DNA from: Diphasiastrum complanatum
Taxonomy: Eukaryota > Streptophyta > Lycopodiopsida > Lycopodiales > Lycopodiaceae
Assembly (NCBI GenBank): GCA_029204225.1
Contig: CM055101.1
Location: 46,239,906-46,303,905 of the forward strand
Reading direction: 5' to 3'
Length of the DNA stretch: 64,000 nt
The notes under the pieces are model-generated. The model was not told where the DNA came from. It made no database searches and saw only the letters and a list, made by a program, of their open reading frames with translations. The number at the start of each line of letters is the position of its first letter. The stretch's first letter is position 1. Below are positions 150 to 53,640 of this stretch, piece after piece. Both the position numbers and the translations under genes were made by a program.

Positions 150-2177
150 CATCTCAATGCTCTCCGTCTTCTCTAATGATGCTCTTCATTCCCATGGCAT
201 TTCTTAAGCATACAAATCTATCCTTCGATAGAGGCTTGGTCATTATGTCAGCAGTCATCATTTTGGTGGGACAGAACTCCAGCACCATCTTCTGGCTTTG
301 TACCAAATCTTTGACAAAGTGGTGCTGGATGTCAATGCGTTTCCTTCATTTATGCAAACCTCCATTCCTGCACATGAAGATGCTGCCCTGGTTGTCGTTG
401 AAGATCTTCATCCCTTTTTGTTGAGATGCCTATCTCGTGGCATAGACTCTTGATCCAAACATACTCCCTAGCGCCATGACATATCCCCATTAATTCCACT
501 TCCATTGAGGAGACTCGCCACAGATTTTTGCTTGCTGCTTGCCCAGCTTACAACTCCTCCGCCCATCATGAAGACAAACCCACAAGTAGATTTCTTGTCA
601 TTTGTGTCACCTGCCCAGTCAGAGTCGACAAACCCCTCAACGTTTTTAAAAGGAAATCTATATTCCAACCCAAGTTCAATGGTTCCCTTTAAGTACTTCA
701 GAACTCTTTTGGCTGCTTGCCAATGATCGATGCCTGGGTTTTCCAGATACCTGCTGAGTGATCCAATTGTCATGGCTATATCTGGCCTAGTGCATACCAT
801 GGCATACATCAGTGATCCCACTAGGCTTCTATATGGATATCGGTTCATTTTTGCTCTGTCAGACTCAGTCTGTGGTGACATCTCCTTGCTCGATCTTATT
901 CCCTGTTCTTGTGGAGTTCCAATAGGATTGCAATTTTCCATCCCAAATCTTTTGAGCATATTAATGATGTACCTTTCCTGCCTTAGGTGGATAGACTTTC
1001 TGATTCTATCTCTTTCAACTTGAATTCCTAGGCAATAATGCAACTGCCCCATATCCTTGATTTCAAACTCAGTCTTCAATTGTGCCTTATAGGACTCTAG
1101 CCTTGAAATGTTGTCGCCAATCAGAATTATATTGTCCACATAAAGTGCTATGACGGTGATTTCCAAATGAGACCTTCTGACGAATATGCTCTGATCTGAG
1201 TTGCATTTTTTGAAATTTCGCTCACGAAGGTATATTTCAATTTGTTCATACCAGACCTTGGATGATTACTTTAATCCATATAGGGCTTTGTTGAGTTTGC
1301 AGACCATGCCCGACCCTTCTTCAAATCCCTCTGGTTGTTTCATATACATGTCCTCACTTAGTGTCTCGTTCAGAAATGTAGTCTTGATGTCAAGCTGATA
1401 GATCTCCATGTCATTGGCCGCTGCCCATGCAAGAATTATCCTAATCGATCCGATTCTAGAAACTGGGGCAAAAGTTTCATCAAAGTTCACGCCTTCTGTC
1501 TGCGAGCATCCTTTGGCTACTATCAGTGCCTTATATCTCTCCACATTGCCCTCTGCATCATATTTTAACTTATAAATCCACCTGTAGCCAATGGCACTCC
1601 TACCTTCTAGTATGTGTACCAGACTCCACACATTGTTCTTCTTGATCGACTCCATTTCCTCTGTCATCGCATGGAGCCACTCGTTCCAATCTCCCCTCTC
1701 TCGAGCTTCCCGATAAGTTCCTGGCTCTTCATTTGGCTCTTGACTCATGAATATCATCTCATTGAATCTTTGGGGAGCTCTCTTTGCCCTGTTTGGTCTC
1801 GCCTCAACAATTGTCTCTGAGTTCTCCCTATTGAACTTGATCTTGAGCCTTGGTTGCCCCACTGTATTAGGTTCTTCGTTCTCTTCCGCATCAAAAAATT
1901 CCTCCCCTGCGGACACCTGACCATCAATGCTCTCATCATGGGTATGATCATCCGAAGATACATTGTCTTGGGATGTATTGGAGCTCGAAATGCTAATGAC
2001 CTTTGTAGGAAACATCACACCCCCCTTGAGTCCACGATCTGCATCAGAATTGGAGGTGGGTTTTACCTCCACTGTGGGATCTTCATCAAACACAACATCC
2101 CTGGCATTGATGAACTTTTTTGTAACGGGATCAAAGAGCTTATATCCCTTAGTCCCTTCCGAATATCCTACAAACAA
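150..2177 (-). pseudogene. Copia element 1: reverse transcriptase and RNase H, broken
   Basis: This is the 3' half of a Ty1-copia polyprotein, which copies element RNA into DNA in cytoplasmic particles. From 2177 downward it reads an integrase C-terminal motif (FVGYSEGTKGYKLFDP), an acidic linker, then the RT start (YRWIYKLKYDAEGNVERYKA, ETFAPVSR). The second RT block at 1166 has the catalytic box as YVDN instead of YVDD. RNase H follows (DSDWAGDTNDKKSTCG), and a one-base shift near 510 moves the frame; the next frame continues with a DNQG box and an ADIMTKPLS tail near 180. An in-frame stop near 360 and the break between 1266 and 1166 add to the damage. The family is certain and the copy is inactive. 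Confidence 0.9.
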
Positions 2178-2231
2178 GCATTTGTTGGATTTAGGATCAA
2201 GTTTCTTTCGTTTTTCTTTGGGAATGTGTAC

Positions 2232-3276
2232 TTATGCAGTGCAGCCAAACACCCTAAAGTGATCTACTCTTGGCTTATGTCCGTACCACATCTCGTGAGG
2301 GGTTTTTCCTACCAGGGCCTTCGTTGGAGATCTGTTGATTATGTGACATGCAGTTGCCACAGCTTCTGCCCATACATACTTAGGTAGATCATTCTCCTGC
2401 AACATGCAATGCGTCATTTCCATCAGTGTTCTATTTTTTTTTTTCGCCAAGCCATTCTATTCAAGAGTGTATGGTACAGTGAATTCTCTCAAGATACCAT
2501 TCTTTAGACAGAATTCATCGAATTCTTTGTTCTTGAATTCTCCTCCATTGTCACTTCTGAGCTTCTTGACTTTCTTGTTGGTTTCACTCTCAGCTATGCT
2601 CTTGAATGCCTTGAAACTTTCAAGTGCCTGAGATTTTTGCTTCAAGGTCTAAATTCGAGTCCTCCTCGTGTGGTTGTCTGTGTATGTAACGAAGTACCTA
2701 GATCCACCGATAGATGGCACCTCCATTGGTCCACAAATGTCCGTGTGAATCAGCCCAAGTACTTCAGTGGATCTTGTTGGATGTATCTCTGGAAAACGTT
2801 CTCTATGCTGCTTTCCAAAAATGCACACATCACATTTGTCTATCCCCTCCTTGACATCGTAATCGAACCCCCTCAGCATCTCGTCATTTGCCAACGTCTG
2901 AAGACTCTTGCCAGCATCCTAGATGCCCCATCCGCCTATGCCAAAGACTATTGGTTTTGTTGGAGTCAACCGTCAGACACGCCATGGATCTTTGGTCAGC
3001 TCCTCCTTGTAGTTGATACAAACCTCCTATCCTGAATCCAATGTCAATTAGTCTGTCATCCGTCTGAATGCTGCACCCTTCTTTTTTGAACAACACATGA
3101 TATCCAGTATCTGTAAGTCTGGCTACCGACAATAGGTTCTTGGCCAAATTAGGAACATGTAGCATGTCACACATGTTCATACTCCTGTCTTTCCCAAGCC
3201 ATATGAGAACGGAGCCTCTCCCTACCGCATCAATCACGCCTTTGTCCCCCATCATGATCTCCTTACCGATGAGCAT
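2232..3276 (-). pseudogene. Copia element 1: GAG-pre-integrase and integrase, broken
   Basis: Minus-strand frames at 3276-2884, 2894-2649, 2645-2457 and 2450-2232 together cover the copia integrase. The first holds the GAG-pre-integrase region (LHVPNLAKNLLSVARL, then SLWHRRMGHLG with the zinc-binding histidines). The second has the cysteine pair CDVCIFGKQHR and the first catalytic aspartate region (HTDICGP). The third has the second aspartate (LRSDNGGEFKN). The last has the conserved start KKKNRTLMEMTHCML. The pieces lie in different frames with stops between them, so no full integrase can be made. The order gag, integrase, RT is that of Ty1-copia and not gypsy. Confidence 0.88.
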
Positions 3277-3338
3277 CTGATAGGTGATGAAGGCATCACG
3301 ATTGTCATATAGGACGTAGCTACAGAATCAAGACACCA

Positions 3339-4338
3339 TTATGCATCTGTGTCAATGATCTGTCTCTTGGCTTTCAACTGTACATCGATGACCTCGTTAG
3401 AATCAGATGATGCATCATATGACTGTGTGTCTGATAGTTCCAGGGAGTTCCAATTCTCTTTAGCCATTATAGCGAATGCATCTGTGGTCTCCTGCACTTC
3501 ATCAACTAGGTTGGCTTGATCTGGACTCCTCCTCTGCATGTCAGCTTTCTTTTTATTGCATTCACGAGCAAAGTGCCCTGGCCGATCACAGTAGTAACAC
3601 TTCTTGTCAAATTTTCCCTGGCCATCACTTGAAGTCCTCCTCTTGCTGACTCGATTGCCCACCTTCTGTAATGGGTCTTTGATTCTTGATCCCCATCTTC
3701 TTGAAGCCACTCAAGAGTGCCATTTCATCCTATGCTGGATTGACCTTCCGCCTACTTTCTTCCTGAATGAGCCTCCGAGTGATAAACTCCATGTCCAGTT
3801 TATCCTCAAACCCATCAAGCATCATGACCAATGGATCATAGCTGGATGGGAGACTGGTGATCAGATTGTATATAAGCTATTGTTTGTCAACCACTACACT
3901 GGCCGCTATTAGCTAGCTTCCAATGTCCTTGATCTCCTCCACATGGTCCCTCATCGAATCACCCTCATTCATCTTGGCGTTCGTCAGCTGCCTCTGCAAC
4001 ATCAGAATACTTGAGAAACCTTTAGCTTGAAATCTGCCATGAAGCACATCCCATACCCCCTTTGTTGTCCCCTGATCTCTTACTAATGAGATCGCGGTCT
4101 TGCCTAAGCTCAGGCACAACATCATGTGTGCCTTCGACCCTTTCGTAGTTATCAATTCGGCCTGCTGTGCGTTCTTCACCCGGCCCTCTTGATCCAGTTC
4201 AGGAGTCTCCTCGCCTGATACGACGCCCCATAGGCCCTTGTCTTTCAGCAAGATTTTCATTTTTCAACTCCACGAGCTGTAATTGTCAGCCTCTAACCGA
4301 TCAATCATCTTGCTCTCCGTCGACGCTTCTAGTGCCAT
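3339..4338 (-). pseudogene. Copia element 1: gag with zinc knuckle, broken
   Basis: Gag is the structural protein of copia particles. An ATG at 4338 on the minus strand opens a frame with the usual start (IDRLEADNYSSWS), but a TGA follows at about 4262. The frame goes on from 4260 (MKILLKDKGLWGVV) to about 3913. After frame changes, a nucleocapsid zinc knuckle of form C-x2-C-x4-H-x4-C (CYYCDRPGHFAREC) lies near 3,600-3,550. The protease that should follow the knuckle is not readable. The primer site just upstream (4443-4452) fixes this as the 5' end of the element. Confidence 0.85.
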
Positions 4339-4459: not shown

Positions 4460-5090
4460 TCCAAGATAGCATGCGATCCTAGGATTCTTCCTTTACATAC
4501 GTGGGCCCATAACCATTGTTAGAATGAAACACAATGAGGAAGATGATAGCATGAAAGACAGAATCTACAAGCACTCGATTAATCAATCATAAAGCAAAAT
4601 CACACTCACATACAAAAAGCAATCTCCTGATTACCAAAAGCGTGATCATAGCCTCACGAAGCATGTACATATATATGCATGCTCATTAGGGAAAATATGG
4701 GCTCAAAATGGGCCCTTTAAAAACTTTCACTTTAGAGAGAGATTACGTAGAGAGAGAATGCAAACCGGTAACTTTTGGTCGCCGGTTTTCGAGTTTCCGG
4801 CCTTGCTCAATGTTTAGCTAGTATGGTTAACTTCAGACAATAGTTAGTTTAGCATGAGATGTAATAACTTCTCTTCATGCTCATTCTCAAATTTGGGACT
4901 AGAGCTTTAAGACTGAATATCTTGGTGTGCTCAATGCAAAAACTGAAGCGAGAGAGGCAAAACTTTTGAAATCACTGTATGCTTATAGTGAAATATGAGG
5001 TGGGACGATTTTTCAATGCGACATAAACATTACAAAAGTAAGGAATGCTAGATCTATTCATATTGATTTATTGTAGATAGATTCATTTAC
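4460..5090. other. Non-coding stretch, possible degenerate 5' LTR
   Basis: There is no reading frame with recognisable content. By position 4,460 to about 4,800 should hold the 5' LTR of copia element 1 (read on the minus strand), and an ATATATATGC stretch near 4,670 could be its TATA region. It does not visibly match the putative 3' LTR at 1-144. Confidence 0.3.
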
Positions 5091-5965
5091 ATGATTGTAG
5101 CTTTAACAACGGCAATGTTCCATTTGCATGTTGCTCTTTCGATGGAATGCATTCCAATCATTAAGAAAAATGTGAAAGTTGTAGAGAATGTTGCAGCAAT
5201 AGTTAGAGAATTGAGAATGAATAATCATATGAATATAGATTTGTGGGTGGATGGATCAATTTATCCTAATGATCCAGCTACCAATTTGTGTCCATATTTT
5301 AAGTTTGTAACTCATCTTCTCAAATATGTATGTGAAGGAAATAGCGGATTACTTGGATATTGTCAAAGGTTGCGAGATATTGGAATGCATAGCATATCTT
5401 GTCTGAATCAACAATTACAGTTTGCTAATCAACAATTGCAACGTGCAAATCAACAATTGCTTCATTATGTGCAACACACTAGTGCTGAAAACAATGCACT
5501 CAAGAATGCTATGTCAGAGTTGAATGCTACTGTTGCTACTCTCCGAGGATCAAACCAAGAAATGTTAGAATCCATGGAAAAGTTGCGATCCGAGAGTTTA
5601 AAATCTGTTGTTGATCTAAAAGTTATCAATAAGGCAATGATGAAGAGGAAAAGAAAGAGAGTACCGATGAAGAATATTGATGACCTATCTACACATAGCG
5701 GCAATCAGAAAAAAAAGAATCCGAGCATTCAAGTATGTTGTCATCTAAACTGTTTATTTGATTTGTATATGTCATTTAAGTTTGATTTGCACTTGATAAC
5801 ATGGATTACTTATTTATTAAACATAATTTGAGTTTCATATGTTTGTTGCAGATCATGTTTGGTGGCAAAGAACTATTTAACAGATTGTTCATGCATTGGA
5901 TCATCTTTAAGTCATGTTTTACCAAGAAAGTCAGCAAAGGAAATGATAAAAAATGCTCGGTTTGA
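5091..5965 (+). CDS. Hypothetical two-exon coiled-coil protein
   Basis: Not recognised. Exon 1 runs 5091-5732 and exon 2 5852-5965; the intron has GT at 5733 and a TTTGTTGCAG acceptor ending at 5851, and joins in phase 0, giving about 250 residues. The N-terminal 100 residues contain LWVDGSIYPNDPATNLCPYF and look globular. Residues about 105-185 are a coiled coil with a repeated NQQLQ unit (LNQQLQFANQQLQRANQQL) followed by heptad-like leucines. A basic cluster MMKRKRKRVP near residue 185 could be a nuclear signal. The ATG is chosen because an in-frame TGA lies 30 bases upstream, but an AG just before it could be an acceptor for an earlier exon. It sits between retroelement scraps, so it may belong to a mobile element. 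Confidence 0.45.
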
Positions 5966-6324
5966 AAAAATGAAAAATGAAGTTGTCGTCTGTTTCTTGA
6001 TGCACAGTTTAATAGAATATATATGAAATGTGTGGTGCGCAGATCAAATGCGCGTTTTTGGTGGTATCATTGTTCTTGCTTCCTCAGTACAATTGATGTC
6101 TTGTTCATGAATGATTGATGATTGGTAATCGTTAATGCCTTAATTTGGAATGCCATTTCTTAGCAATTCATAGAACATTGAATTGTTGTGGGACAAGTAG
6201 GACTACTCAGAAAGGTTATGGGCCCACATGCATGACAAGACGTTGTATGGAATCCTGCCCCATCGAAAAAGTTCTAACGAAAAGAACAGCGCGATAAGCT
6301 AAGGAGATGGAGGTGTAGAATACT

Positions 6325-6640
6325 AATGATCAGCGAGGCATCAAGAAGCTCAAAGGCGAGAGATATGGTCTCTGGAAGCGGAGAATCAAGATGGTGTTAG
6401 AAGAGAGAGGGCTATGGAGCATCGCGGAAGGAAGTGAGCTTCCTCCAGAGGCTGACCGTGAGGAAGTGGTGAATGCTAAAGCAACGAGGACATTCAGAGC
6501 TAAGGAGAGAAAGGCATTTGTCACGATCTTACCCTGGGAGAGATGCCAGCCACACAGGTACAAGATGCGAAGGATGCCAAACAGGTCTGGGATACCTTAG
6601 AGGGCATATATGTAGGATCATGTGTAAATTGGAGTTCAAA
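6325..6640 (+). pseudogene. Copia gag fragment (UBN2-like)
   Basis: The frame reads GERYGLWKRRIKMVLEERGL, the typical beginning of plant copia gag, where a W follows the start and a K/R-rich segment leads to a long ERGLW helix. It carries on with an alanine- and glutamate-rich stretch to about 6,520 and then changes frame. It is an isolated N-terminal piece with no pol on this strand. The next piece of copia, from about 6,640, is on the opposite strand. Confidence 0.6.
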
Positions 6641-7200
6641 GATTTAGTTCAGCAAGAGAGACGTAATCTAAAATTTTGTTCAGCCACATTTATGAATGTC
6701 TTCTTGTATATATCCATTAAGGAATGTTGTCTGAACGTCCATCTGGTGAATGTCTAGATCTTTTGTAGCTACGATAACCAATAGTGTTTGAACAGATTGA
6801 TGCTTTACAACTGGACTATTTAGTGTAATCTATTACCTACAATTGTTCGTAGCCTTTCACAACTAGTTGAGTGTTTTATTTGAATATAGATCCATCTAGG
6901 TTAAGCTTCAACTTGAATATCCACTTAGTGTCAATAATCTTCTCATTCGCAGGAGGGTCGACAAGACTACAAGTCTTGTTCTTCAGTAAGGAATCATACT
7001 CAACATTCGTGGCCACATTCCAGTTGTTTGTGTCTGAGTTCAAAAGGCTTCTACACCTATGGTAGATTCATCCCGAATCATGAATGCTTGAGGGATGTAT
7101 CGATAAGACTCTTGTCTAATTCGAGCAGATCTTCGAACTATCGTTGGTTGGTGACTAGGTAGCTCTCCTTCTGTGAGATTGGGATATCTTTTATAGGTGT
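6640..7200 (-). pseudogene. Copia reverse transcriptase N-terminal fragment
   Basis: Read on the minus strand, 7,050-6,880 gives the start of copia RT: EYDSLLKNKTCSLVDPPANE followed by DTKWIFKLKLNLDG. Downstream the frame decays, but a TTFLNG box (usually NAFLNG, near 6,730) and traces of the following motif are visible. The active-site YVDD region is absent. This fragment points towards the gag fragment at 6,325-6,640 instead of following it, so the two are not a simple remnant of one element. Confidence 0.7.
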
Positions 7201-9030
7201 AAAGGTATGGTTTCTTCTTTTGCTTTGTATGTTTTTGTCCAAAATCTACTTTGAAAATATTTTATAGCATTATTCTTTGTGCAGATTACGAGGGGAAATT
7301 GAAATATATTATCAAGTTGGGAAAATTAGAGTAACGTAAAAGGCTGGAAATTAGAGTGCACAACTATGACATCAATTGAACCAAGCATTGGTACAGATCA
7401 ATCAATACAACTCGAATGACTTTAGTTTTTAATCAAAAAATCATATTTCATGGACTGTTGCATTTGAAGTTCCTAAAGAGTTACATGAAATCTTGAAGTG
7501 GGTTTTTGAAAGGTGCAATATTGCTAAGATAGTGCATGCACAAAATCAAAGATATACAATGTTAGTAAATAAACAAGAATGATGTGGTATTGTACCACAA
7601 AGGCCTTGCCATGTCATAATAGCATGAATCCTAAAATTTTAGAAAATTTTAGGATTTGTTTAAAGTGTTTTCTATATTGTTGTGATAAATTATTTTGTAG
7701 TTTCAAAATTTGGATAGTAGTTTGTCGTAAGTTTTTAGCAGACATTTGCATCTTAGATGAGATCTATAATATTTGTTATTTATTTTAAAAGTCAATTTAT
7801 TATAAGTTTTATACAAAGTTGTTTTTTAGATAAAGATGTTGATTCCATTATTATACTTGTTGGCTTTTTCAAACAATGGCCAAAAGTTTGAATAAACTAA
7901 ATCATAATTAAAAAGGATATGTTACTATGACTTTGTTATATTTTAAGCATTTTAGCCCATGAGTTGTTGAAAAGCCTAGATAAATTATCTTCTTTTAGGA
8001 GAAACGTTGATTCTTTCTTTCGCACTTTTTTTCGAATTTCCTCCATGTTTTTGTATAAAATCTTCAACAGATATTTCTTGTTCACTGAAATTGCTCAGTG
8101 GATTCATTATTGTGTTTTTCGCTTCGTTTAATAGTTGATGATATTCATTTGTTTTTATGTCATTTCTCAAGTAATAAATGATGATGTTGTTTGATAGTTG
8201 TGAGTCTCGATGGACTTAACATGATGACCAAAAAAAAGAGAAATCACTTGAAGACCCATTTTTTTTACATTTATTAAATTTTTTTTAAAAGTATCCAAAT
8301 TTAAAATGCTTCAAATAAATATATTGTAATGTTAAGAAAATGTTGTATTTTGCAAGAAAATAATTTAAGTTACAAAAATTTGGTCAATAGATTTTTATAA
8401 ATAGCTTAAAACTAGCTTATATTAAATAACAATACTATTTAAAATAAAATCATTAGATACACAACCACTAAAATACCTAAAAAATATTTTTTGCTTTACT
8501 AAAACAAAAGTTATAGTTTTTTTTTTTGAATTTTAAAAGTTTTCTAAATTACAATTCTGGTATCGAAAAAAATATTTTTTAAATTATGTTAAAAATTTGA
8601 ATCAATATTTTTTAAAATTTTAAATTTTTGAAAATCTTTACTTACACCCACGTAAGTTTATTAAATATTTAAACATTAAATAAATGCAAATGAAATTACT
8701 TTACAATAATCATGATTAAATTATTTGTGATAATATTTAAATCACCCTACAAAAAATCTAAATTTTTCTTTTTTCATTTCTTATAATTTCTAACAATATT
8801 TTTTTACAAAAAATATTATAAAAACACATCTAAAATTAAAATATTGTAAACTTGACAAATCGTTACAATTTCATTTTTGGTAATAATTATCAATGTAAAA
8901 ATTTTTAAAATATTTCAGATTTTAAATTTTAAATCGTTAAAAAACAAATTTGAAAATATTAAATCAATAAAAAAGAATTCAAAACACAATACATCAAAAA
9001 TATAAACACAATTATTTTTTAAAACAAAAG
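7201..9030. other. AT-rich non-coding stretch
   Basis: Very AT-rich, most strongly from 8,220 to 9,030 with long A and T runs. The only frame of note is a 61-codon one at 8170-7985 (minus) that contains FSEQEISVEDFIQKHGG and a basic tail; it has no recognisable homology and I do not call it a gene. The richness may mark the 3' flank of the methyltransferase locus. Confidence 0.5.
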
Positions 9031-9035
9031 AGACT

Positions 9036-10265
9036 TTATAATTCCCAAAAATTATCGATGTCATTTACATCTTTTTCTTTTGCTTTTTCTTGAGTAGCCA
9101 CTGTACTATCAAGTGGCACATCTTCTACAATTTCCTCGACTACAGTTACTACATTGTAATCTTGAACCAAGACATCAGCAAATTCTCCTGTGTCGCCTAC
9201 TTTTTCGCTAGCAAGAGACTGAGATTCCTCGGACAAGGGAATTATTGTATCCTCGTTGTCCAAACTCTTTCCCACCTCAGATAATTCATCTGGCAAAATT
9301 GAAAGAGATTTCATTCTCATTTTTACAAAATCAACTAAATTAGTATCTAGATCTACTACAGCAACATGTCTACCTTTCTGAATAGCACATGCGCTCGTAG
9401 TGTCGCTATCGCTAAATAAATCTAAAACCCAATCAGCTGGGTGAGAAAAAATATCAATTAAATGATTAATTAATTGTTGTGGCTTTTGGTAGGGACAAGC
9501 CACGGAACCTGTCATTGGATTTTTTAATTTCTTTGTCACAGCTGAATACTTGAACAAGTTTCCAAAACTTGTCAATCCGGAAGTGTTATAATACAGCATC
9601 GAACGTTTGCCATCCAAAGAATAATAATTGATGGTTATGTATTCTATTTCATTGCAAAGTCGAGCTCCTCCCGAGTTCTTGACATTGGGCTTGTACTTGA
9701 CATGAAACATTACAAGTAAAATAAATCTAAAATTTTAATTTTAAAATAAAAAATTTAAAATAAAATTATGAATTAAAATACGGATTGATAATTTAGGATT
9801 AAGAACTTACCACACAGCATTCTCTAATCTCGCATTACAGAAAGTTAGTAGAGCTTTCTGTACTGATGTTGACTGCCAAGAATAATGAAAAATAACAACT
9901 CTCCAAATTGGAGAAGTTGTGACTTCAAGAAAGCCCTGCATAAAACTATGGATTTCAGTGAATTTGAAAGGAGTATCATCATTTAATGATTCCTTTATTT
10001 GACATCCATATGGTATATCGGCGATGCAGAGTGTATAGGCCTTTTTCTTAAAAATCTTAAAATTTCTCTACAATCGCCCTCCTCAATAGAGTAAAAGCAT
10101 GGTTGACCATCGACACTTTTGGGAAGGTAGGTCTCTAATGGATCCTCCTCCGCAATGGTCTCACCACGTGCCAATCTCTCCCTGACCCTTTTTTCTGCTT
10201 TTGCCTTCAGAATATGTCTCTTGAATTGCTCTGGAAGGACTTTAATTTTTTTTGTCTTCGGGAGA
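9036..10265 (-). pseudogene. Beta-class N6-adenine/N4-cytosine DNA methyltransferase-like gene, broken
   Basis: Such enzymes transfer a methyl group from S-adenosylmethionine to an amino group of adenine or cytosine in DNA. Exon a (10265-9811) follows a CTTTTTCCTTTTCAG acceptor and reads PCFYSIEEGDCREILRFL. In the next frame comes the catalytic motif IV as IADIPYG at 10020-10005, where DPPY is usual. A GTAAGT donor follows at 9810. Exon b (about 9726-9036) holds a GGARL/EYITINYYS strand region, then CPYQKPQQLINHLIDIFS and the SAM-binding motif I as VLDLFSDSDTT (9428-9393; usual DPFxGSGTT), and an acidic tail. Motif IV before motif I is the order of beta-class enzymes. Breaks: a one-base shift in an A-run near 10038, and a TGA at the a-b exon junction. 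No upstream exon is found. The family call is firm; activity is unlikely. Confidence 0.75.
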
Positions 10266-10339
10266 CTGAAAAGGAAAAAGCTATGCTTAGCATAGGAGGC
10301 AAAAAAATATAAAATAGAATAGGAGAACTGTTTCTCCAG

Positions 10340-12611
10340 ATGCTTTAAATGCAACTGCTTGGCTAAAGCATTTCATAGATGTGCACGAAAAAAAATTGCC
10401 TAATTCTTTATATTTTCACTTGCCGGATAATTTTGCAAAATTAGAAATATTTTTGATGTACAAAGAGTTTGCAAAAACAAAAAATGTTCCCTATTTGAGT
10501 TACTCATATTATCTTAGAATTTGGAAAAGAGATTTTGGATTGGTAAAGATTTCCAAAAAATCAGGAATGATGGTATGCTCCACTTGCGAGTTGTTAAAGT
10601 CTACAAAACAACTTGCAAAGACCAATGACGAAAAAGGTAAATATTAATCAAATTTGTCTTTCATTTTAATACTTTCTGTTTTGAAAAAAATTATGTTGCG
10701 GTCTTTTTGAACACCATTATGTTGCAGTCTTTTTGAACATCGTTATGGTATGATCTTTATTTTATTAAATAAGTGAATCATTGTATTTTCAGTGGATGCT
10801 GCAAAAGCTCTTCAATTGCACAGAGATCAACAAACAATTGAAAGACAAAAGTTGGCCAAGCATCGAAAGAAATGTTTGGAATGTCCACAAAAATATCTGG
10901 GACTTGTTATTGATGGCATGGATCAGAAGAAAACAATGTTGCCTCATTTTGTCAGAGTGCCCAAAAATTTGAACAAGGCAGATTTTATCCAAGTTCATCT
11001 CATTGGAGCACTTGTGTTTAATGGCACTTTGGAGTCCAAGGTCTTTTTTAATTATCCCAATGTTCAAAATGATCCAAATTTGACGATCACCATTGTACAT
11101 AAGATAATTTGCGAATTTGGTGAAAATCTTATAGAAATACTTTATATGCAGCTTGACAACACTGCTAGAAAAAATAAAAATCAAACTGTTTCGGCATACT
11201 TGTCTATGCTAGTGGAGAAATTTTTTTTCAAAAAAGTCAAAATAGGATTTTTGTTGGTAGGACATAGCCACGACCAAATTGATCAAATGTTTAGTTGCTT
11301 TTCTAAGAGGTTGAGACGCAAGAAAGCATTTTCATTACCAGTGCTTCAAAGCATTGTTGAGGAATCGTATGTGCCAAAGCCAAACGTGTCATTAATCAGA
11401 CACACATATGATTTTCGTGATTATGTTAAGGCGTCCAACGAAACAGAGCGAATATTAATGATATTAGCTTTCAGCACCAGTTTAAAATCAAATGTAACGA
11501 ATCAAGCATTATACTGTTATGGGGCAAACTATTTTCAAATTCAGTTTCGTGGCTACCTCTTGAAGGAGTTCGATTTTTGCTTAACATTCGATCGACTCAA
11601 ATCAAGCTTGTTGTGTTGTCTCCCTTGAAATCCTTGCTAGAAGAACAAAAGGCGCAAAGAGAACATCGTGAGAATGATCCATTTGTCTCATTAATTTTTT
11701 TGGAATCAAGTATTCAATCAGCTTATTATTTTTTTGATGAGTTTGATTAGCATTGGTGGATGGACTTTTTTGAAGAACAAAAAATCAGTTTGCTCAATCT
11801 CGAACATACATCAACAACTCATTAATTTCATTGGCTTCATAAATTAGGAACATCAACTACGATTGTCGAACCTTCAGATCTTCCTCAAGATAATGATTTC
11901 CTGCAGCTTGTGCAAGGTGAGGAACGCGAAATTTATGTGGGCTCAAGGAAGAATAGGCAAAGTGTAAAAGCTGCAAAAATGAAATGGCGCGGTGATTTGA
12001 ATGAAATCCAAATTGGAATCCATGTTGCACTTCTAGCTTCAGAAAACAATGAAGGACATCCATTTTGGATTGCCAAAGTACTTGGTTTTATTCAAAATAG
12101 CAATCAAACAAAAGTACTACACGTCCATTGGTTGCGCACCACTTCAACGAATGCTTTTTTGGGAAGGGACGAACTCGAAATGTTGCAAGTAGATCCAAAG
12201 GGCAAGAGAAAGAGATTGCCAAAAAATCAACCAAGAGTCGACGATTTGAATTTACAGGATGTAGATGTTTTGGCATTTAATTTTGGATTAACAATGACCA
12301 ATTATCTATGAAAGTCAACAATATCTATATTGAAAGAACGACTTGGATTACTTGAAAAACCATCATCCTCCACTCGTCATCAACAGAGAAAAGCTGATTT
12401 ACAAGGTTTTTTGTCAACATTAGACGCGAATTTTGAGGAAGACATGCCAGTTGACTCTGATGAAGAAGACGGGTCTTCCACTTCATCAACTGAAAACGAG
12501 AGTGTTGAGAATATGTCAAGTTCTGAATTGAAAGGCATCAGTGAAAATTCCTTAGAAGCATTACATATGGGTGATGCAATTTTCTACAAAACATGTAGTT
12601 TTGCATGTTAG
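10340..12611 (+). pseudogene. DUF7869-like putative DDE transposase, broken
   Basis: This resembles a large plant and protist family of transposase-like proteins (I recall it as DUF7869; the number needs checking). Exon 1 (10340-10636) follows a CTGTTTCTCCAG acceptor and has AWLKHFIDVHEKKLP and a CSTC pair. A 156-base intron joins in phase 1 to an exon starting at 10793. That exon carries candidate catalytic aspartates in GLVIDGMDQKK (10912) and MQLDNTARKN (11155), then the family signature VGHSHDQIDQMF near 11,270. The frame shifts near 11,455, continues through WLPLEGVRFLL, and meets a stop near 11,749. From 11,910 a small beta domain (PFWIAKVLGF, LHVHWL) and a serine/acid-rich tail follow, with one in-frame TGA at 12,309. 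So there is one frameshift and at least two stops. Nuclear DNA binding is expected from the family, not seen. Confidence 0.65.
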
Positions 12612-16902: not shown

Positions 16903-19900
16903 CTATCGCCGGTATCTCGTTGGCCCCCTTGGCCCATGGACATCCCTCTGAAATCTCCTTATCGGAGACCTGCTTCTTTCTCGAAGGTCTGCTCCCCAAC
17001 GAGAGCGTGGGGGTGACAAAGGGCGTCTCTCACCTCTTGGATCGTGGTCCAAGCTTTTATCTTTATGGTGATTTCCCCTTTCCCTTTCCCTAATACCGCT
17101 GCCATAAAAATCACTACTAAATGAAAACTTGTCAAACCTCTCTCGATGTATGGAAGGAGCTTTTTCAAACCTCTGTCTGTCTCTAAAACCATCCTGACCA
17201 TCATGGTACATACCTCTATCTCTATCTCGAAACTCTCTTTCTGGTGGTAAAGTCAAAAATCTATCAGGAACACGACTAGAAAGGCCATGATCAAACTCTT
17301 GTCCCCATGCATTAGGAGGAACATCAAGAAGACCATGATTGTCACCGATCCTTCGGTCAAAATGTGGGTCTCCTACAAAATCAGGTTGTACAGGCCCTTG
17401 AAAATTCCCCAAAGGACCACCAAGTCCGAGGCCAAAAGGAGCCATATCTCTTGGTTTCCGACAATTGTTGCAATGGGTTCTCCTGGAAAAGTTCAGATTT
17501 CCACATCTACAAAAAGTAAGAGAATAACAAACGTCAGAGTTGTTCATTTTGAAAAGACTACAGGCAAAATAATAAATAAGCTCCGCTGCATTTGCACAAA
17601 TATCAAAAACAAAGTAAAAATCGAAATACTTCAAGAATACCTGCAAAGTTCTGAGTAAAAGAATATTTCAGTTCCATGATTTGAGGTTCAAACTGAAATG
17701 CGTATGAAGCTTGACCAGGAGAGACTACATGTATCTAGAAAACATACTGTCAACACAATGAAACAGTTTCAAATCATAGCCCTAATTTAAGACTTACGTT
17801 GGCTCTGAACATATCCAGTCACCTTCCCTGGGTGAAACATTTGGATTATTGCGTCCATGACTGTCCTCTCCAGGTACAAAACCATCTCGACTTCCATAAC
17901 CACGTCCACCAAAGCTTCGTCCAGAATGTGGCATGTCACGTTCAAACCCAGATGAAGACTGCAAACGAGTTGGAAAACGATCTGAATATCTACCTCGACC
18001 TCTACCTCCTCTGTTGACCGCTCTACGTCCACCCTGATGTCGAAGAGTGTCTTCCTCAAATTTGGACATGAATAAATATGGTCTCCTACGACGAGGACTT
18101 AAGCTTAAATGTCCAAACTGAGACTCATTCCTACCTCCACTTTGGCCATAATCTGTTGAATCAGAAAGATAATTCAGTTAGGCAGAACAACATGATACAA
18201 AGAAAAAATTCTCATCCTCATATTACCATGAATGGTGAATTTCAATTCAAAGTTTCAATCAATTCATCAAGCAGAATTATCTAAGTGTTAAGGCATAAAA
18301 GTGCCACTTGCACCTCTTCTCAAACAGAAATCATGATGTTGGTTCATGTCCTGTGAGTATCCGGACCTTCAGAAACAAGAGGTTGGCCACAAACACTATA
18401 TACTGATTTAAAATGGTCATTAAACTGCCCACACACGAAGCAATGCCAAAAAGCACAGTCAAAAGTTCACATTCCCAAAGGTAGAATAGATTTATCATGC
18501 GGCATCTACCAGTACCAATATGTAATTGAACATAAGAACAGCAAATAGCAATTCTTGTGAAATCGCTACTTGAAAGCCCTATCACCAGGTTTTGATTGCA
18601 ATGCAAAACAAACTCCTGTGCTTTCCTCTTCCAGAGCAGAACTGATGTACTCCAGTGTAAGAAAGAATGCCAATTATTCCATTATCCAAGGAAGAATGAC
18701 ATCTTTAAAGAATTCCAATTATTCCATTATCTAAGGAAGAATGGCATCTTTAAAGAATTCCAATTATTCCATTATCTAAGGAAGAATGACGTCTTTAATT
18801 CAGAATTTCCAAAAGCTCCAACGAAGCTGTTGTCAATACTGCACCCAACACTAATGTAAAAGAAGTGCTAGTAATTTAAGCTAATGAATATTCAGGAAAT
18901 TTATCCAGAAATACAACCAAGGGCTCTGATTTTCTGAGGATATTAAATCTGACTTTCCAGTTGTGAGCTACACTGAAGATCTGCAACCTAATGTGACTGT
19001 TGATGCTAACGGTGGTCCTATATGCCAACTACTTTCACAGTTCTTTTTTGTATTTCCATGACCAAAGCCATTCCAAACCACAGATTTACAGCTCCTGAGC
19101 ATCAGAGTGTGATTACCCTCCTATATTAACATGGATGTGACAAAGATCAGGAGCCATGGTTTCAATTTTCAATGAAGTCCAACCATTCTCCCTCCTTTCC
19201 TTGATAGCTTCAAATCAAACACAGAACCTAGAGTTTCTGATTTTTCTGCATAGTTCTTTTTTACATAAATCCCACAATTCTGCCTCCTCTCCTCGATAGC
19301 TTCAAGTCAAACTCAAAACATAGAGTTTCAAATTTTTCTGTTCTCTGGTACTCAGGTGTGTGATCACGAGATTCAATTTTCTCTTCACATTCCTTGAATT
19401 CAAACTAGACAAATGAGATCTAAAGACAGTAGACCTATTAGAAAAGATAGGGTGACGTAGTCTAGTCCCCCCCGTATTACACATACTCAGAATAACAAAG
19501 AAAATCTGTACACCATCATGCCAAGTACCGTCAGTAAAGCAATAGAAGCAAACTTTCCAAAACTGACTCATAAAGTACCAACTTTAAAATGAAATTCCAC
19601 CAAGCCGATCATTTGATACATTGGTAAAGTCTTATGTAGTTTCCAAAATATGCTGATTGGCTAAGGTAACTTAAGCCCTCCAAGGGTCCACGATAGAAAG
19701 CGTTGTCCTCGTGTTCAAATTCTTTAGCTATAAGATATAACATCAAATCCTGGAGCAGCTGCAAGGACTGTGTTAAGCTGCTGTTAAAACCCAACATGGT
19801 GAGCATTGACAAGGTATTCCTGTCCAATTACTACTCTTATGTACTCCAGAGGGCCAGCATGTATCCGCATCAGTTAAAGTTGCCATTCATTGTCGCATTT

Positions 19901-50905: not shown

Positions 50906-52439
<1,534 letters not shown>

Positions 52440-52760
52440 CTTGGGGTTCTATTGGCAGTCATGGCCGATATGGAACCACACTTGTTTGGTGTTGACATGT
52501 CGTCACCAGGCCGAAGGATAGGAAGTCCTGAAATTAAGCCGTCGACGTTGCTAGTGATTATGAGAAAACATTGCTCTAAATATGTTAGAGCAATGGGTAG
52601 TAGTGTGACCAAATTAAGTTTCTATTATCTAGGTACGATTCGAAGTGGTTGACTCATTTGCACTTCCAGCCAAAAGTTTTCTTGTCGACAAGAAGTTCAA
52701 GCAACCAGTGGCATTGAAGTCATGGATTAACCGATGGAACAATTTATATTTTTGATTTCC
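52440..52760 (+). pseudogene. Gypsy gag N-terminal fragment 1
   Basis: Starts with an ATG at 52,460 (MADMEPHLFGVDMSSPGRRI) and runs on through SPEIKPSTLLVIMRK; after a stop, frame changes lead to a SWINRWNN-like box near 52,720 that matches gag of copy A. The region is a diverged copy of 53,650-53,970. Confidence 0.6.
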
Positions 52761-52843
52761 ATCATTCTTTACAATTTTTAAGTCTGTTAGTTTGATGGGA
52801 TATTAGGGAGAGACCTAAAATCCTTTGCGGTGACCATAAAGAT

Positions 52844-53640
<797 letters not shown>

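Follow-up and report, generated by a model that had tools for sequence, protein, structure and literature searches.

In the lycopod Diphasiastrum complanatum, the 64,000 nucleotides of contig CM055101.1 between positions 46,239,906 and 46,303,905 (assembly GCA_029204225.1; hereafter the window) contain a gene for a bacterial-type DNA methyltransferase (methylase) beside a gene of the DUF7869 family on the opposite strand. Are these two relics neighbours by chance, or do they belong together? A first-pass annotation, made from the letters alone, proposed that they could be what is left of a DNA transposon with a methylase of its own. Comparison with the rest of the genome upholds this proposal: paired copies share sharp ends, terminal inverted repeats (TIRs) and 4-bp target site duplications (TSDs), and the two genes are almost certainly parts of one composite, high-copy nuclear DNA transposon. 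Genome comparisons were made in the 1.745-Gb assembly to which the window belongs, its contig there being of chromosome size.

Both families are abundant in this genome. The methylase exon gave 3394 first-look candidates and the DUF7869 exon 4536, and all of those scored were matches (150/150 for the methylase, at 70-100% identity, and 139/139 for DUF7869); many of the scored methylase matches are free of internal stops. A DUF7869 profile search returned at least 150 matches in the window's genome and 0 in the 14 control genomes. Many of these profile matches fall outside the 139 scored places and begin at profile position 4, which suggests that the genome holds further DUF7869 families. The first-pass annotation had also called for a count of pairs in the same order elsewhere. 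When the 150 methylase places were set against the 139 DUF7869 places, 13 pairs, one of them in the window, proved to be no more than 6 kb apart among the matches listed, and all 13 were head-to-head. The random expectation is ~0.14 pairs within 6 kb (scaled from 0.48 per 20 kb). Beyond this distance, one head-to-head pair is found at 10.9 kb and one pair that is not head-to-head at 15.3 kb. The pairing of methylase and DUF7869 is not chance.

The ends of the element were read from 20 methylase copies taken with 10-kb stretches and turned to the window's orientation, six of which were extended by 4 kb. Homology has its left edge at window 8210-8218 in 14/20 loci and starts later in the other six, and a right end is common to L016, L019, L021, L024, L025 and L029. 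DUF7869 pieces occur on the plus strand in 6/20 of the stretches and in 6/6 extended copies. A complete element is ~9.1 kb long and consists of a leftward, multi-exon methylase gene and a divergent, rightward DUF7869 gene. The most complete copies are L019 (9108 bp), L025 (9084 bp) and L029 (8794 bp), while L016, L021 and L024 have both ends and internal losses (4499, 6223 and 5967 bp). The element begins AACATGATGAC, and its right end reads GTCATCGTGTT or GTCATTGTGTT, forming imperfect 11-bp TIRs with 1-2 mismatches (AACATGATGAC...GTCATYGTGTT). These are flanked by 4-bp TSDs: GATT (L016), AGTT (L019 and its duplicate L025), TATT (L024), GGAA (L029) and TACT/CACT (L021). The search for TIRs and target duplications that the annotation had recommended thus succeeded, with the TSDs perfect in four of the five independent insertions read at both ends and matching at 3/4 bases in the fifth.

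The right end also recurs apart from these copies. A 31-mer of it has 816 sites in the genome (400 + 416, at most 3 mismatches), and the reversed control has 0. Proximity to the genes was assessed for 100 listed exact right-end sites on contigs C1-C8, inexact sites and truncated copies being left out. Here 7/56 methylase places lie within 12 kb of a listed site, 7/7 on the expected side and strand, as do 11/57 DUF7869 places, whose 12 matches are on the expected side in 11/12 cases and on the expected strand in 12/12.

Where copies are more complete, several kb separate the two genes and hold further minus-strand open segments, probably exons that belong to the methylase gene and lie upstream of those seen in the window. 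Conserved open segments of this kind lie on the minus strand upstream of the catalytic part at ~6500-8200 (oriented) in L017, L019 and L029, for example ...HFFVLGGIHSLQARKQL...EEAKLLAWDHNIDQDYRMKMTVIQRIRFFHKEYMR. Read by eye, they appeared ParB-like, but Pfam and PHROGs gave no significant match in support, and the reading is kept as a lead. L017 additionally has a second, degraded methylase-exon fragment immediately left of the element (3054-3283, oriented), which suggests nested or tandem insertions.

Against this background, the window copy can be described as follows.

8218..12558, no strand: composite-transposon remnant; homology begins at 8210-8218 and stops at 12557/12558.
8218..8228, plus strand: left TIR, AACATGATGAC, the same terminus as in other copies.
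9036..9695, minus strand: last methylase exon, with motifs X and I-III (motif I decayed to DSD) and the stop codon; PF01555, E 1.8e-11.
9696..9810, minus strand: methylase-gene intron (strong donor TG/GTAAGT, acceptor TCAAG), the frame being off by one base across the acceptor.
9811..10265, minus strand: methylase exon with GDC and motif IV, DIPYG (10005-10019), a frameshift near 10045 and a 3' splice site at 10266.
10325..10326, no strand: internal deletion junction, with ~4.2-4.5 kb missing relative to L029 and L019.
10340..10636, plus strand: exon of the DUF7869 gene ahead of the DUF7869 domain, the 5' part of the gene being deleted; 3' splice site at 10339 and phase-consistent intron at 10637-10792; the same exon is present in L015, L024, L030, L019 and L029.
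10793..12558, plus strand: decayed coding exon for DUF7869, a putative transposase (PF25273, E 4.6e-45), with a frameshift near 11452, in-frame stops at 11748, 11823 and 12309, and a truncated 3' end.

The first-pass annotation had delimited the locus as 9036..12611. Both genes do lie inside these limits, but the element spans 8218 to 12558, and both genes are intron-bearing. Window 8216-10326 aligns with L019 3846-5947, and window 10325-12557 with L019 10416-12649, so that neighbouring bases in the window (10326 and 10325) correspond to L019 5947 and 10416. The gap amounts to ~4.5 kb relative to L019 and ~4.2 kb relative to L029. Neither gene has its 5' end in the window: each begins at a 3' splice site, the two lying 74 bp apart, and no upstream in-frame start codon was found at either remnant. 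The tight head-to-head arrangement is therefore the result of an internal deletion that fused two gene remnants of one element. No match to the final ~310 bp of the element, which include its right end, was found in the window. Because the right end is missing, a TIR/TSD search within the window alone gave no pairs above chance (32 candidates versus a mean of 35 in 40 shuffles).

The first-pass annotation had called the minus-strand gene a beta-class N6A/N4C methyltransferase, and the profile search agrees. The open reading frame at 9036-9710 matches PF01555 with E 1.8e-11 and 44.9 bits (cut-off 26.7), with motif IV and motif I at the places that had been given for them. Joining the exons across the intron and the frameshift extends the match to positions 3-217 of the 221 in the profile, at 51.8 bits, and the joined protein can be aligned with the PDB sequences of CcrM, RsrI and MboIIA; the motif IV segment by itself had no PF01555 match in the profile scan. 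The motif order is permuted, motif IV preceding motif I. In amino-methylases, motif IV is D/S/N-P-P-Y/F and motif I is FxGxG. Motif IV reads DIPY in the window copy, L019 and L029.

Motif I had been reported as DLFSDSDTT, which is indeed present at 9396-9422, but its DSD does not represent the family. Among 41 copies, a script found the motif in 40, of which 20 have GSG, and L055, the sole copy that the script missed, has both glycines. To judge by this comparison, DSD in the window arose by decay from the family's GSG. Relative to the AGC-GGT-AGC-GGC of many copies, the window carries two G-to-A changes (in the GGT and GGC codons), both in CCG context on the opposite strand. Such changes are expected from deamination at methylated CHG sites, a link to methylation that we infer.

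The plus-strand neighbour, described in the first-pass annotation as a DUF7869-like remnant adjoining the methylase, matches PF25273 at 10792-11628 with E 4.6e-45 and 154 bits (cut-off 26). Its frameshift near 11452 was located by frame comparison with other genomic copies, and L017 has a 301-codon open segment across the region of the window's stops. The window copy of the element is dead. Conserved blocks containing Asp were seen by eye in DUF7869, and the family is probably a transposase of the RNase-H/DDD type.

Whether the methylase mattered to the element was approached through the pairwise ratio of nonsynonymous to synonymous substitution rates (dN/dS) in its last exon, using 41 copies and 820 pairs. 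The median ratio falls with divergence, from 0.97 (dS<0.1) through 0.60, 0.43, 0.34 and 0.25 to 0.15 (dS>0.6, 114 pairs). For the divergent pairs (dS>0.6), the two wrong frames gave 0.77 and 1.32 versus 0.15 in frame, a clear contrast, and at dS 0.3-0.6 they gave 0.54 and 0.94 versus 0.30, a weaker one. The ratio for DUF7869 likewise declines with divergence (0.83 at dS<0.1, then 0.67 and 0.45, with a single deep-bin pair at 0.105), based on 109/120 usable pairs, 106 of them in the bins given here. In the comparison of L051 with L019, there are ~82 synonymous and 66 nonsynonymous changes in 215 codons, and we do not see how biased choice of copies alone could have produced this synonymous excess. 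The methylase ratios, from one deep contrast, suggest that the methylase was probably kept by selection in the past.

Several observations weigh against the composite transposon or against the part in it that is given to the methylase. Two of the paired loci, both on C17 (L019 and L025), are one duplicated insertion with the same flanks, and two further C17 pairs have identical DUF7869 scores and are probably also a duplicate, leaving fewer than 13 independent pairs. DUF7869 was found at 10/20 methylase loci overall, the stretch or the homology having ended first at the other 10. The TIRs, at 11 bp, are short, and among the PDB sequences DUF7869 found no relative, its two weak matches (E 0.11-0.12) being to an unrelated enzyme. 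Copies entered the dN/dS analysis because their proteins were similar, and 20 later additions because they had no stops, so that the sample is biased towards conserved proteins. All 114 deep pairs involve L051, L052 or L053 compared with the 38 others and represent essentially one lineage split; L052 and L053 have the same unusual motif I. For recent pairs (dS<0.1), the wrong frames gave 0.36 and 0.55 versus 0.97 in frame; binning by in-frame dS and base composition therefore shift the ratios. Because this control runs the opposite way, the 0.97 is not taken as a clean measure of neutrality, and because it is not centred on 1, past selection on the methylase is considered probable and no more. 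Variants shared among 21 close copies have a nonsynonymous-to-synonymous ratio of 0.63, versus 0.69 for singletons, which indicates little constraint. This count was not used as support for selection, and the claim rests on the pairwise deep split.

The low constraint on shared variants also favours a different account, in which the element captured the methylase gene and copies it along as a passenger that plays no part in its life cycle. The same can be said of the stop codons in many methylase copies, the dN/dS of ~0.97 among recent copies, and the loss of a motif I glycine in half of the sampled copies. The passenger account is nevertheless unlikely, given that the deep-split ratio of 0.15 versus 0.77 and 1.32 in the wrong frames points to constraint along the lineage of active copies. 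Somewhat less improbable, though still the weaker option, is that the methylase modifies another target, either the host genome broadly or RNA, and that the element profits indirectly; in Marchantia, a bacterial-origin amino-methylase acts genome-wide, producing N4-methylcytosine (4mC) in sperm (PMC8885841).

Two other explanations can be set aside. The genes might be neighbours by chance, if nested insertion had joined a methylase pseudogene to the remnant of a DUF7869 transposon unrelated to it. Nested retrotransposon fragments do crowd the neighbourhood, both genes are 5'-truncated at the junction, and the window itself yields no TIR pair above chance. However, the truncation is an internal deletion, the pairs within 6 kb are uniformly head-to-head, and common termini and TSDs enclose both genes, so that recurrence of the pair inside common ends refutes this account and leaves it only a very slight chance of being right. 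Lower still is the probability that the gene is a bacterial contaminant or came very recently from a bacterium, for which the bacterial-type fold of the enzyme would speak. This account is refuted by the spliceosomal-type introns, the high copy number on chromosome-size contigs and the distance of the best phage matches of the methylase exon (31-36% identity over 28-39% of the query). Plasmids gave no match to the methylase. A scan of bacterial genomes for the methylase, by a method that reaches close relatives only, gave no confirmed relative, and neither did viral contigs, which were scanned twice by protein and once by pattern with the same reach. Introns, high copy number and divergence together indicate that the gene was acquired long ago, from bacteria or a phage-like source.

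The best explanation as a whole remains the composite transposon together with the inferred roles of its two genes, for which we give a probability of about 0.85. In this explanation, the DUF7869 protein would be the transposase of the element. The methylase, an old acquisition of bacterial or phage-like origin, would methylate the element's own DNA, and this mark would help the element to transpose or would counteract the host's silencing by 5-methylcytosine (5mC). For some bacterial transposons, Dam regulates binding of the transposase, and regulation of this kind is one possible benefit. That the methylase self-methylates the element to evade silencing or to regulate transposition is a tentative proposal, at slightly less than even odds. 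The same caution applies to its fuller form, that of a land-plant cut-and-paste transposon with an integral, selectively kept amino-methyltransferase, which would mark itself with N6-methyladenine (6mA) or 4mC and in this way license transposition or resist 5mC silencing. N6-adenine is the likelier target because motif IV starts with Asp, DIPY being nearer to DPPY than to SPPY; SPPY is found in most N4C enzymes and DPPY in bacterial N6A enzymes (PMC8885841).

Among known DNA transposons, Sola elements come closest. They have a 4-bp TSD, TIRs of 11-1124 bp and a size range of 2-9 kb, and are known from a moss (PMC10741241). The present element resembles them, in a comparison by description only, in its 4-bp TSD, short 11-bp TIR and length of ~9 kb, but differs in its methylase gene, which is absent from the description of Sola given in that source (PMC10741241). 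Sola is defined by similarity of the transposase, and the element is not filed as Sola. The Ginger superfamily was rejected, as it needs TIRs of 40-270 bp with TG...CA ends (PMC10741241), whereas the element ends AACA...TGTT over 11 bp.

Other mobile elements are known to carry methylases. DIRS retrotransposons encode Dam-like adenine methylases and are thus, like the present element, mobile elements with a bacterial-type amino-methylase (PMC5890265). They are, however, tyrosine-recombinase retrotransposons with a Dam-like enzyme, whereas the element described here is a DNA transposon with TIRs and TSDs and a PF01555 enzyme. Long interspersed nuclear elements (LINEs), DIRS and Gypsy elements with captured C5 DNA methyltransferases have been described in Symbiodinium and Klebsormidium, with purifying selection reported in Klebsormidium (PMC5890265). 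These too are transposons that gained a DNA methylase, but theirs are C5 enzymes in retroelements.

Related enzymes are also known outside transposons. N4CMT of bdelloid rotifers, which has an SPPY motif and a chromodomain, and the 4mC methyltransferase of Marchantia are described as host enzymes (PMC8885841). They share with the present methylase a bacterial origin and a place in a eukaryotic nucleus, and differ in not being transposon genes. Identity with rotifer N4CMT was rejected, as the window methylase has DIPY and the segments scanned gave no profile match to a chromodomain. CcrM, RsrI and MboIIA resemble the window family in having motif IV before motif I, the PF01555 fold and alignable sequence. 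The window family differs from them in having DIPYG rather than DPPY, introns, an acidic C-terminal tail and probable extra N-terminal exons.

The surroundings of the element hold further features. On its left, an open frame at 5067-5828 (plus strand) encodes a coiled-coil-looking protein with no Pfam family above cut-off, and L019 and L025 have segments 28-33% similar to this protein on the left side of the element. Copia-type retrotransposon fragments occur nearby at 468-4260 (by eye) and 6319-7067, the latter with a weak gag match at 6319-6597 and RVT_2 matches at 6683-7067. To the right, an open reading frame at 16903-17646 (minus strand) combines an Arg-rich tail with a zinc finger that by eye is RanBP2-like, and is possibly a host RNA-binding gene. 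The region 34000-57700 contains nested Ty3/gypsy-like copies (by eye) with a direct offset of 5.87 kb and inverted arms of at most 552 nt, and two long CT-rich simple-repeat tracts lie ~1.2 kb apart within 51494-53170.

Transposons with methylases are already known among retroelements (PMC5890265). Among open-licence papers, we found no report of a nuclear DNA transposon of plants that is present in high copy and encodes a bacterial-type amino-methylase showing signs of past constraint. The element also makes DUF7869, whose name marks its function as unknown, a likely family of transposases. It may also be the source of some adenine-methylation signals in plant genomes. The methylase may be how the transposon marks or shields its own DNA, and the element is a natural case in which to test if a mobile element in plants can be protected by 6mA or 4mC from 5mC silencing.

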